A DNA stretch of 64,000 nt from Anaerostipes butyraticus (lineage in GTDB: Bacteria; Bacillota; Clostridia; Lachnospirales; Lachnospiraceae), in the NCBI RefSeq assembly GCF_016586355.1, contig NZ_BLYI01000031.1, positions 62,001 to 126,000 of the forward strand, given 5' to 3'. The translations under genes were made by a program, and so were the position numbers. The notes beneath the pieces were generated by a model that was not told the DNA's origin, searched no databases, and saw only the letters and a list, made by a program, of their open reading frames with translations. Every line of letters begins with the position of its first letter. Positions within the stretch are counted from its first letter, which is position 1. This document shows, one piece after another, positions 51,354 through 53,645 of this stretch.

Positions 51354-51387
51354 GAAAAAATGCCGGCTGAATCGCCACAGCCGGCAT
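51354..51387 (-). terminator. Terminator of the sirtuin-macrodomain operon
   Basis: ATGCCGGCTG (51360-51369) pairs with CAGCCGGCAT (51378-51387), followed on the minus strand by six T (51354-51359). Confidence 0.92.
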
Positions 51388-51400
51388 AAGGTCTGAAATT

Positions 51401-51655
51401 TTATTCTTTGATCACATCGTCAATCGTATCAAAAGGAATTCCTTCATTTTCTCCATTATCTTTGTGCATATATAAGATGTCATCTTCTTCTGTGTATCTG
51501 GCAAATTCAATCTGCATAAAGGTTCCTTTTCTTTCTTTGCCATCCAGTGTCTTCACCCGGATATGATCATTCTGAGAAATAAATAAGACTTCTCTGCTGC
51601 CGTCCTGATCTTCTTTTTCCAGATGTACACCTGGAAGTACGCTGATAAATTCCAT
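51401..51655 (-). CDS. Unrecognised 84-aa protein downstream of the macrodomain gene
   Basis: I do not recognise this small acidic protein. The sequence is dominated by short alternating strands (VLFISQNDHIRVKTLDGKERKG, then EDDILYMHKDNG, then IPFDTIDDVIKE in pieces), suggesting a small beta barrel of the SH3/Sm kind. AAGGAG is 8 bases before the ATG. It lies 71 bases after the macrodomain gene and before a strong terminator, with no clear promoter of its own, so it is probably the third gene of the operon. Confidence 0.7.
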   Translation of the reverse strand: MEFISVLPGVHLEKEDQDGSREVLFISQNDHIRVKTLDGKERKGTFMQIEFARYTEEDDILYMHKDNGENEGIPFDTIDDVIKE

Positions 51656-51726
51656 ATCTTTTCTCCTTCTCTCGTGATGGATTTATTTTACTGCAAACAG
51701 AATCAGAATGCAATGCAGCAAATCTG

Positions 51727-52560
51727 TTATGACAGCAGAGCATGATAGTACTGTTCATCGATTTCCTTAAATACATTAAAAATAATCCGGTCAAAGTTTT
51801 CCGCATGCTGATCCAGAAAATCAGAAACCGTTTTTACCGCGATTTTTGCGGCCTCATCATTTGGAAAATGAAATTCTCCTGTGGAAATACAGCAAAAGGC
51901 CACAGAGCGGATGTTATGTTCCAGACAGCATTTCAGGACGCTTTCGTAACAGTTTTTCAGGTCATGTTCCAGTTTCCGGTTCAGGCGGTACCCTACGATC
52001 GGTCCTACCGTATGGATCACATATTCTGCCGGAAGATTATATCCTTTTGTCAGCATTGCCTGGCCGGTCGGTTCCTCGTAGCGCCGGCCAAAACGGACTC
52101 TCTTCTGATTCATACGGCAGTTACACTCTTCCCGCAGCTCGATTCCAGCCGCGCTGTGGATGGCGTTATCAATGCAGCGGTGGCATGGGATAAAGCATCC
52201 GAGCATCTGAGAATTGGCCGCGTTTACAATGGCGCCTGCCGCAAGTCTTGTAATGTCTCCTTTCCAGACAGAAATTTTATCTGCATGTGGATGGAAACTA
52301 TGGTATTCTTCCTGTATGGTCGGAATCTCAGATAAGGTTACGATACCCTTTTCCCTGGCCTCTTCTTCCAGAAATTCATCCTGGACTTTCAGGACTTCTT
52401 CCGGCATTTCCCCCGGCATCCGAATATTCATCAGAGATCGGAGCACCATCCGCTTGCTGTCATAATCGTCATCTACTTCCAGACTGCTGTACTGCACAGA
52501 ATCTTCTTTGAATACTTCCAGAAGATAATCCAGACGCTCTTCCTGATTTGAAAATTTCAT
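51727..52560 (-). CDS. Zinc-type macrodomain protein-ADP-ribose hydrolase
   Basis: This 277-aa protein has an N-terminal helical region (1-90) and a macrodomain. The ADP-ribose loop is VWKGDITRLAAGAIVNAANSQ (98-118), followed by the Zn-macro signature GCFIPCHRCIDNAIH, with Cys 122, Cys 126, His 127, Cys 129 and His 135, of which a subset should bind zinc. HTVGPIVGYR and SIAFCCISTGEF-like strands follow. Zn-containing macrodomains linked to class M sirtuins remove ADP-ribose from the sirtuin's target. ATG 52560 has AAGGAG 8 bases upstream; it follows the sirtuin gene by 18 bases. Confidence 0.9.
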   Translation of the reverse strand: MKFSNQEERLDYLLEVFKEDSVQYSSLEVDDDYDSKRMVLRSLMNIRMPGEMPEEVLKVQDEFLEEEAREKGIVTLSEIPTIQEEYHSFHPHADKISVWKGDITRLAAGAIVNAANSQMLGCFIPCHRCIDNAIHSAAGIELREECNCRMNQKRVRFGRRYEEPTGQAMLTKGYNLPAEYVIHTVGPIVGYRLNRKLEHDLKNCYESVLKCCLEHNIRSVAFCCISTGEFHFPNDEAAKIAVKTVSDFLDQHAENFDRIIFNVFKEIDEQYYHALLS

Positions 52561-52578
52561 CACTCTCACTCCTTCTTT

Positions 52579-53520
52579 TTACTGATCCAGCGCATGCAGC
52601 AGATCGTACACACTTTGTTTCATATCGGCGTTAATTCCAATGGCCCGGCTTCCGAGACTTTCCGGAACAACGGCTTCATTCAGATTCAGCCGGATCAGGG
52701 TCATATTTTTATTTTCCCGGGCAAGTTTCTCAAAAGGAAATCTTACGATCACCGGCGTATTAAACCCAATGCCCAGCTCCAGAAGAACTGTCTTACCGCT
52801 TTTGCACTGTTCCACAAAACTGCCGAACCGTTTTTCTGCCTCATGCCACTGTTCATCTTCCACAAAGGAATCATCACAACGCAGGTTCATTGCCATTGGG
52901 CCGCCGCATACCGGGCATTTCGGAACCATATGGGAAGGAATCAGACAGTCCTTCCTTGCGGCGTTCATCTGTTTCATCATTTCCACATCATCATACGTCC
53001 TTGGATGACAGCCTCTCATGCACTGGATCCGCCCGTAATCTCCCTGGGCGGCAAAAATATGCTCAGAACCGAAATCCGCTTTATAAAACTGATGGTCTGT
53101 ATTGGTGGTGAGAACGAAATATTCCTTATCTTTTACAATCTCCTTAAGCTGCCGGTAAAGAGGAAGAGCCGGCAAAGCGATACGGTTTACATATACATGT
53201 TTGGACCAGTATCCCCATCGGGCTTCTTCACTTGGAAACGGATAAAATCCCGCACTGTACATATCTGTCATTCCGTACTTATCAATGAATTCCGCGAAAT
53301 TTCTCTGAAATCGTTCGCCGCTGTAAGTTAATCCTGCTGCCGCTGAAAGACCTGCGCCGGCTCCGATGAAAATCTGATCTGCATGCTGAATGGCTTTGGC
53401 AGCAGACTGAATCTGCTCATCGTATGGAGTTTTCTGAAATATATAGTCACTGGCAGGAACTCTGCAGAGGAAATTCTGGAAAGTCACTTTTGGTTTTCTT
53501 GATTTCAATTTTTCAAACAT
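52579..53520 (-). CDS. Class M sirtuin-like (SirTM) protein ADP-ribosyltransferase candidate
   Basis: This 313-aa Sir2 fold protein has FIGAGAGLSAAAGL at 51-64 and TTNTDHQF at 138-145 for NAD binding. At the place of the catalytic His of deacylase sirtuins it has Gln 159 in AAQGDYG. Zinc cysteines are CMRGC (167, 171) and CPVC (202, 205). Gln in this position and linkage to a Zn-macrodomain are known marks of SirTM enzymes, which ADP-ribosylate a lipoylated GcvH-like protein in staphylococci and streptococci. Neither GcvH-L nor LplA2 is near here. Activity is inference. Confidence 0.88.
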   Translation of the reverse strand: MFEKLKSRKPKVTFQNFLCRVPASDYIFQKTPYDEQIQSAAKAIQHADQIFIGAGAGLSAAAGLTYSGERFQRNFAEFIDKYGMTDMYSAGFYPFPSEEARWGYWSKHVYVNRIALPALPLYRQLKEIVKDKEYFVLTTNTDHQFYKADFGSEHIFAAQGDYGRIQCMRGCHPRTYDDVEMMKQMNAARKDCLIPSHMVPKCPVCGGPMAMNLRCDDSFVEDEQWHEAEKRFGSFVEQCKSGKTVLLELGIGFNTPVIVRFPFEKLARENKNMTLIRLNLNEAVVPESLGSRAIGINADMKQSVYDLLHALDQ

Positions 53521-53589
53521 TCCCTTTGCACTCCTTTATGATCTTAACAAAAGATTTTGTTGTAACTCTTATAATTACTTCTTGTTTAT

Positions 53590-53618
53590 AATATAGCGCA
53601 GCCTTGTTGTAATGTCAA
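53590..53618 (-). promoter_or_regulatory. Promoter of the sirtuin-macrodomain operon
   Basis: On the minus strand TTGACA (53613-53618) and TATATT (53590-53595) are 17 bases apart. The transcribed leader contains AACAAAA-GA-TTTTGTT (53546-53561), a perfect inverted repeat, and three TTGTAA-type words flank the promoter; these may be operator sites. Confidence 0.7.
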
Positions 53619-53645
53619 TAGTTACAATTAAATCCAGACAGCATG

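Follow-up and report, generated by a model that had tools for sequence, protein, structure and literature searches.

The window analysed here is a stretch of 64,000 nucleotides of contig C31 of Anaerostipes butyraticus, whose genome of 3.17 Mb comprises 85 contigs and has a listed completeness of 100%. The window bears two adjacent genes on the minus strand, encoding a class M sirtuin (SirTM) and a zinc-dependent macrodomain protein (Zn-macro). According to the main text of Rack 2015 (PMC4518038), bacterial SirTM/macrodomain pairs occur in independent or extended operons, with Lachnospiraceae among the carriers. A minimal SirTM/Zn-Macro operon has also been described in the main text of Ariza 2024 (PMC11490716), where the matter of the targets of such systems 'remains elusive'. 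The pair as such is thus not new, because the minimal operon was already in print in 2015 and 2024 (PMC4518038, PMC11490716). We found that its promoter carries a predicted operator that recurs before a set of redox genes elsewhere in the same genome. Taken together, the observations make it probable that the pair belongs to an electrophile-stress Rrf2 regulon and acts on a non-lipoylated target. The features of the locus are the following.

52579..53520, minus strand: SirTM, class M sirtuin of 313 amino acids (aa), assigned by homology and catalytic residues
51727..52560, minus strand: Zn-dependent macrodomain of 277 aa, protein-ADP-ribose hydrolase family, with Zn loop GCFIPCHRCIDNAIH and Dx3H
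53607..53626, minus strand: predicted operator TGTAACTATTGACATTACAA of the Rrf2 type (SifR/HypR-like), overlapping the SirTM -35 box
53590..53618, minus strand: sigma-70-type promoter TTGACA-17-TATATT (11/12), from a consensus scan
53546..53561, strand not applicable: perfect inverted repeat AACAAAA-TC-TTTTGTT in the SirTM 5' leader, conserved in the sister genome G001
51401..51655, minus strand: open reading frame (ORF) of 84 aa between macrodomain and terminator
51360..51387, minus strand: terminator-like hairpin of 10 pairs followed by a T run, from a scan

The SirTM/Zn-macro pair

A preliminary description of this DNA, made from the sequence alone, had reported a Sir2-fold gene with Gln159 in place of the catalytic His and had placed it in class M, and both assignments hold. 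Gln159 lies within FAAQGDYG, where QG replaces the catalytic HG. Asn140, Gln159 and Arg214 align with Asn118, Gln137 and Arg192 of the Streptococcus pyogenes SirTM, the offset of 10 in residue numbering relative to its PDB chain having been counted by hand. In that enzyme the trio is needed for transfer, and mutation of Asn118, Gln137 or Arg192 abolishes activity, according to the main text of PMC4518038. The S. pyogenes SirTM (5a3a) was also the top match in a PDB search with the window protein (203 bits, E 4.4e-59), followed by the fungal Mfs1 (115 bits), and the SirTM of the extended operon of Aerococcus aligns at 34% identity and 191 bits. That the protein might instead be an ordinary nicotinamide adenine dinucleotide (NAD)-dependent deacylase is suggested by its weak similarity (29.4 bits, for a cut-off of 243) to NF001753, a deacylase subfamily, but this reading is highly improbable: the best deacylase in the PDB search reached only 14.2 bits (E 0.17), BLASTP against Escherichia coli CobB gave no real alignment, and the position of the catalytic His is Q or E in 156/156 copies of the first locus set that were aligned. 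As judged by its catalytic residues and its similarity to class M members over deacylases, 52579-53520 encodes a class M sirtuin. A quick tree places the SirTMs of two extended-operon loci (L100 and L317) together and apart from the window SirTM; it has no canonical outgroup, because its three rows labelled canonical are divergent class M-like copies with a Cys at the catalytic place.

The second gene matches the NCBIfam protein-ADP-ribose hydrolase family NF003163 at 307.9 bits, above the curated cut-off of 272, and its Zn loop GCFIPCHRCIDNAIH begins at residue 121. The best solved match is the Zn-Macro of Methanobrevibacter oralis (MorMacro, 8rsi, E 1.9e-68), which itself stems from a minimal operon (main text of PMC11490716). 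The signature C-x4-H-x-C-[IV]D-x3-H is present in 103 of the 110 macrodomain copies scoring above 150 bits. With the end of SirTM at 52579 and the start codon ATG of the macrodomain gene at 52560, both on the same strand, 18 bases separate the genes, the spacing that had been given together with the Zn-macrodomain signature.

The promoter and terminator of the preliminary description were both located as well. The two prove little by themselves, because such sites are no commoner than in shuffled sequences (promoter-like sites, 7 vs a mean of 5.3; terminator-like sites, 1 vs a mean of 2.3); in an alignment with G001 the -10 box is identical and the -35 box differs by one base. The anatomy proposed earlier is therefore right as to genes, promoter and terminator, and had overlooked the promoter operator and the 84-aa ORF. 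This ORF was rejected as a third component of the operon. Only members of the genus carry it (9 of the 98 genomes, the genus having 11), and we judged it a bystander because three carriers (G004, G005 and G008) have no close SirTM. The inverted repeat in the leader might be bound by a second regulator.

Lipoylation partners

GcvH-L is the sole protein known as a SirTM substrate, according to the main text of PMC11490716, and this precedent speaks for a lipoylated GcvH-like protein as the substrate here too, as in the extended operons of staphylococci and streptococci. Against it, neither GcvH-L nor LplA2 adjoins the pair in the window, as had been noted before, and the genome search for gcvH-L and lplA2 proposed at that time found none by profiles in the whole genome. 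PF01597 (GcvH/GcvH-L) gave 0 matches, and the same profile found the GcvH-L of the Aerococcus extended operon (L100) at 65.6 bits; TIGR00545 (LplA) and PF21948 (LplA/LipB) likewise gave 0 matches each, the same 8 of 24 SirTM-positive control genomes being matched by both.

We then compared 299 genomes of the same family, 140 of which count as SirTM-positive (a match with E up to 1e-30, a threshold that also lets in some array copies without a macrodomain). A strong GcvH (E under 1e-20) is present in 47 of the 299 genomes, and SirTM occurs independently of it (21/140 SirTM-positive vs 26/159 SirTM-negative genomes, Fisher p 0.87). There was no GcvH match between 100 and 43 bits, so that GcvH-L-like scores are missing from this sample. 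Furthermore, the Zn-macro of a minimal operon is unable to demodify GcvH-L (main text of PMC11490716). Because GcvH, GcvH-L, LplA and LipB were not found in this genome, lipoyl-GcvH-L is very unlikely to be the substrate, barring genes missed by the assembly or diverged beyond the reach of the profiles, and the GcvH/lipoyl route was rejected. The earlier suggestion that the substrate may differ from lipoyl-GcvH-L thus gains support.

In one SirTM-positive genome a GcvH-type match lies inside a 329-aa frame near a lipoate ligase (G146:C90:3215-5412), perhaps an unusual H-protein fusion.

A shared operator and a redox module

The operator core TGTAA-N9-TTACA at 53608-53626 is the sole instance in the window, where about 0.1 would be expected by chance (hand estimate for 64 kb). 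It is the published operator core of the Rrf2 sensors SifR, which responds to quinones, and HypR (main text of PMC9218516). An extended palindrome, TGTAAYNRTTGACATTACAW, stands at the -35 place upstream of many Rrf2 genes associated with SirTM/Zn-macro pairs. It matches perfectly at 53607-53626 of the minus strand and nowhere else in the window even with 3 mismatches (mean of shuffles 0.08). The whole genome contains three perfect matches: in the SirTM promoter and, both on contig C70, before an rrf2 gene and before PNPOx-PNPFD genes, the last being identical to the window site over all 20 bases. The reversed pattern, used as a control, gave 0 matches in this genome and 4 across 12 genomes, vs 28 for the forward pattern. 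With a weight matrix from 41 training sites outside the lineage, picked with the motif, the window site scored 32.6 bits and the next best 13.7. Sites with up to 2 mismatches were found at 24 of 34 Rrf2-linked loci and at 0 of 16 control stretches.

The genes on C70 (L217:7125-9889) encode, in a row, Rrf2, PNPOx, PNPFD, a fusion of PNPOx and ferredoxin (PF01243 + 4Fe-4S), and a flavin mononucleotide (FMN) reductase-like protein, the last identified from a weak match. The Rrf2 protein, encoded at L217:7125-7565, matches 1ylf (127 bits) and YwnA (1xd7, 109 bits) in the PDB. Its Cys101, which follows HENPN, is invariant in 41/41 rows, its own included. HENPNTDC is one residue off HxxPNPxC, the hallmark motif of SifR/YwnA (main text of PMC9218516), and the consensus of the 41 relatives is HENPNPEC. 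A YwnB-like protein recurrently encoded near the pairs of relatives has as best PDB match the Streptococcus pneumoniae YwnB (4r01, E 1.3e-74), a quinone reductase under SifR control in the same source.

In the congener G009 (L074) the order Rrf2-PNPOx-PNPFD-Zn-macro-SirTM is contiguous. In G003 (L329), which lacks the pair at this place, the genes that flank it in the window, among them the 703-aa gene and the 84-aa ORF, lie together. As gene order suggests, with the module of A. butyraticus itself on C70, the window lineage probably acquired the pair at this site and separately from the module.

A further operator, with 2 mismatches, was noticed at C46:31241 (L359:1501-1932), immediately ahead of the start codon of a PNPOx-like ORF of 132 aa, which looks like the first half of PNPFD and is seemingly cut short. 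A second SirTM of the same genome (L068:9357-10241, C31:31393-32214) has 43% identity to the window SirTM; it has no Zn-macro beside it, adjoins an HxlR gene on the opposite strand and shows a poor operator match (12 bits).

Linkage was then examined in relatives. The set comprised 124 class M loci, defined by the motif QG[DEK]Y and taken together with their flanks, in which genes were called by a longest-ORF script and neighbours counted within 4 kb. The first 38 loci and the window supplied the sequences for the neighbour profiles, which were run on all 124 loci, those included; 32 nine-kb windows from 16 hand-picked 20-kb stretches of SirTM-positive genomes served as controls. Zn-macro was adjacent at 100 loci. 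The other families were HxlR (49 loci), PNPFD (46), Rrf2 (27), ACGX-type radical SAM (20), PNPOx (19) and YwnB-like (17). In the control windows PNPFD was found once and HxlR, Rrf2, radical SAM, PNPOx and YwnB-like never; a nitroreductase of the pair-associated type was absent from the control stretches. At least one module family (Zn-macro excluded) or a nitroreductase was present at 93/124 loci vs 1/32 controls (p 2.3e-14), and clustering without the chosen profiles brought up the same neighbour families at the top, after the pair itself. An ABC ATPase was rejected as a pair-linked neighbour, being found at 18 loci and also in 6/16 control stretches.

A second set consisted of named loci, the best 80 of at least 592, which may share genomes with the first set and which include Bacteroidales, Oscillospiraceae and Streptococcus sciuri. 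Zn-macro was adjacent in 70 of these and at least one module neighbour was present in 64; none had GcvH-L beside the pair (one-sequence profile). On a Treponema and an Enterococcus plasmid, the existing annotation itself puts Rrf2 and PNPOx-family genes beside the pair. The genes of the redox families lie mostly on the strand of the pair (PNPFD 44/46 in the clustering; PNPFD 28/28, PNPOx 14/14 and YwnB-like 20/20 in the named loci). HxlR lies on the opposite strand in 42/42 cases of the clustering; it was found at 40 named loci, 7 of which have a same-strand copy. A CPVE-type Cys stands at the N-terminus of 36/42 HxlR proteins. An N-terminal Cys serves as the sensor in proteins of the HxlR/DUF24 family, YodB (PMC9218516) among them.

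The preliminary description had called the operon stand-alone. In the functional sense this is disfavoured by the Rrf2-type operator that it has in common with rrf2 and PNPOx-PNPFD on C70, and also by the redox genes usually found near the pairs of relatives.

The association extends to whole genomes. PNPFD is present in 70/140 SirTM-positive vs 8/159 SirTM-negative genomes (p 7.5e-20) and, with the 47 genomes bearing a linked copy removed (linkage assigned by hand), in 23/93 vs 8/159 (p 1.2e-5). The corresponding counts are 25/140 vs 3/159 for YwnB-like and 23/140 vs 2/159 for PNPOx.

At L099 (2731-5271) the genes directly before Zn-macro/SirTM encode a peptide with ACGX repeats, the radical SAM enzyme belonging to it, a nitroreductase and a 4Fe-4S protein. 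The recurrence of the ACGX radical SAM at 20/124 loci makes a link to a modified peptide possible; in a literature search on the ACGX system, the word was absent among the matches listed.

Other sirtuin copies were seen along the way. Tandem arrays of class M-like sirtuins, which belong to a subclade, occur at 12 loci (L059, L075-L079, L101, L195-L199). In the E-type copy of each array Glu replaces the catalytic Gln and the Arg is lost as well (12/12); this copy adjoins a Q-type copy or lies one small ORF away. The quick tree has a branch (support 99) one side of which consists of the E copies, and an Rrf2 gene is present at 6/12 array loci. No Zn-macro was found in the array stretches, except for a separate SirTM/Zn-macro pair about 3 kb away in L059. 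From their sequences, the arrays look like an active and an altered subunit. Two of them (L076:7965-14024 and L077:8480-15465) continue straight into NAD-salvage-type genes, which read as HD/nicotinamidase-like, nicotinate phosphoribosyltransferase and NadE, as if to remake the NAD spent by the sirtuins. A very divergent sirtuin-like protein was also observed in congeners (L010, L017 and L019, from 1480-1483 on). It has CGNGDFFQC or CGSGDFFQC where SirTM has QGDYG..QC, with a Cys at the catalytic place and an altered GAGAG loop.

A possible ADP-ribosylation switch and its relation to known systems

Intact catalytic motifs, shared operators, lipoylation partners that profiles did not find and recurrent linkage in relatives were all computed directly. 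On this basis we propose the following mechanism. SirTM as writer and Zn-macro as eraser, with the activities of their homologues, would form a reversible protein mono-ADP-ribosylation switch. A SifR/YwnA-type Rrf2 repressor would sit on TGTAA-N9-TTACA over the SirTM -35 box, and would also occupy the similar sites that precede its own gene and the PNPOx-PNPFD genes on C70. SifR quits DNA once quinones modify its Cys (main text of PMC9218516); by analogy with SifR and HypR, an electrophile or oxidant such as a quinone or hypohalous acid may modify the invariant Cys of the Rrf2 protein and cause its release. The SirTM/Zn-macro operon and the C70 module would then be derepressed together, as their shared operators suggest. 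SirTM would move ADP-ribose from NAD onto a non-lipoylated protein and Zn-macro would take it off again.

That target would most plausibly be either the regulator itself or one of the flavin or iron-sulphur proteins that the co-regulated module encodes (PNPOx, PNPFD). To single out PNPOx or PNPFD is a tentative step, and the co-induced flavin split-barrel proteins are candidate clients of the same modest likelihood. Extended to minimal pairs as a whole, it is possible, though rather doubtful, that their true client is a flavin-binding split-barrel protein or a PNPOx-ferredoxin fusion. Equally speculative is the wider idea of a reversible ADP-ribosylation, lipoyl-independent and widespread in gut anaerobes, through which a flavo-iron-sulphur protein that carries electrons would be switched when quinones or disulphides stress the cell.

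Several points weigh against these proposals. Co-regulation is not a substrate relationship, and the substrate is something that we infer. The extended motif was written after the window site had been seen, and the training sites were chosen by it. Operators with up to 2 mismatches are rare elsewhere (7/106 loci not Rrf2-linked, 11/80 named loci), the exact core is absent from the plasmid loci L098 and L102 despite their Rrf2 neighbour, and the SirTM site of G001 has 2 mismatches, one of them in the -35 box. Zn-macro is absent within 1.5 kb at 24/124 class M loci; the stretch ends there in 3 of the 24, and in L051 Zn-macro is located one gene further on. Any module family is lacking within 4 kb at 31/124 loci, and a YwnB-like protein gave no match in the genome of A. 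butyraticus at E 1e-40. The co-occurrence tests carry no phylogeny correction. PNPFD is missing at the threshold in 70/140 SirTM-positive genomes and 60 have neither PNPFD nor a strong GcvH, so PNPFD cannot be a universal target.

It is a serious possibility, somewhat short of even, that the target is unrelated to the redox module, being a central metabolic or housekeeping protein, with the flavoproteins merely co-induced in a general stress cohort. The half of the SirTM-positive genomes that lack PNPFD at the threshold, the neighbours that differ from locus to locus and the window itself, where no module gene adjoins the pair, are in keeping with this, but the PNPFD, PNPOx and YwnB-like genes lie mostly on the strand of the pair, and PNPFD co-occurs with SirTM genome-wide even when unlinked.

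A toxin-antitoxin or phage defence function, in which SirTM would be harmful and the macrodomain neutralising, appears improbable. The pair does behave as a gained unit, as the joined flanks of G003 without it illustrate, and it has relatives on plasmids (28 records, of which 11 contain a single place that covers 80% or more). Against such a function, the second SirTM of the genome has no Zn-macro beside it, no Zn-macro lies within 1.5 kb at 24/124 class M loci, 0 PADLOC families match either protein and the promoter bears a stress-type operator. A link to phages was rejected, since only 3 of 50,697 phage records match, one of them over most of the length; this record is 5.5 kb long, unannotated and marked unverified.

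SirTM-type genes were found in 140/299 genomes of the family, and the targets of SirTM/Zn-macro pairs outside the extended operon are stated to be open in the main text of PMC11490716. The shared operator names electrophiles as the likely inducer class and leaves a short list of candidate partners: PNPOx, PNPFD, Rrf2 and the FMN reductase-like protein.

Among known systems, the extended operon of staphylococci and Lactobacillales (LplA2, GcvH-L, OYE, LLM) has the same writer-eraser pair, and in Aerococcus (L100) the flavin-type oxidoreductases nearby are a further likeness. It differs in its lipoylation partners, and the loci L100 and L317, unlike the window, have no exact TGTAA-N9-TTACA. The SifR/YwnA regulon of S. 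pneumoniae and Bacillus subtilis (main text of PMC9218516) has the same operator core as the window. In further likeness, the Rrf2 protein has an HxxPN-type motif before one invariant Cys, a YwnB-like reductase is present in relatives, and the C70 module has its weak FMN-reductase-type gene. Unlike that regulon, the window has no Rrf2 gene beside the pair, and the genome gave no YwnB-like match at E 1e-40. A word search of the main text of PMC9218516 found neither macrodomain nor sirtuin, and in a literature search no paper among the matches listed joins YwnA/SifR with the words macrodomain, sirtuin or SirTM. Similarly, ferredoxin, nitroreductase, pyridoxamine and Rrf2 were not found by word search in the main texts of PMC4518038 and PMC11490716. 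The closest known system is the minimal operon, which like the window has two adjacent genes, the QG motif, a Zn-loop macrodomain and no adjoining GcvH-L/LplA, and which in M. oralis provides the best solved match of the window macrodomain. To this published arrangement the window adds a shared Rrf2 operator and a partner module in trans.

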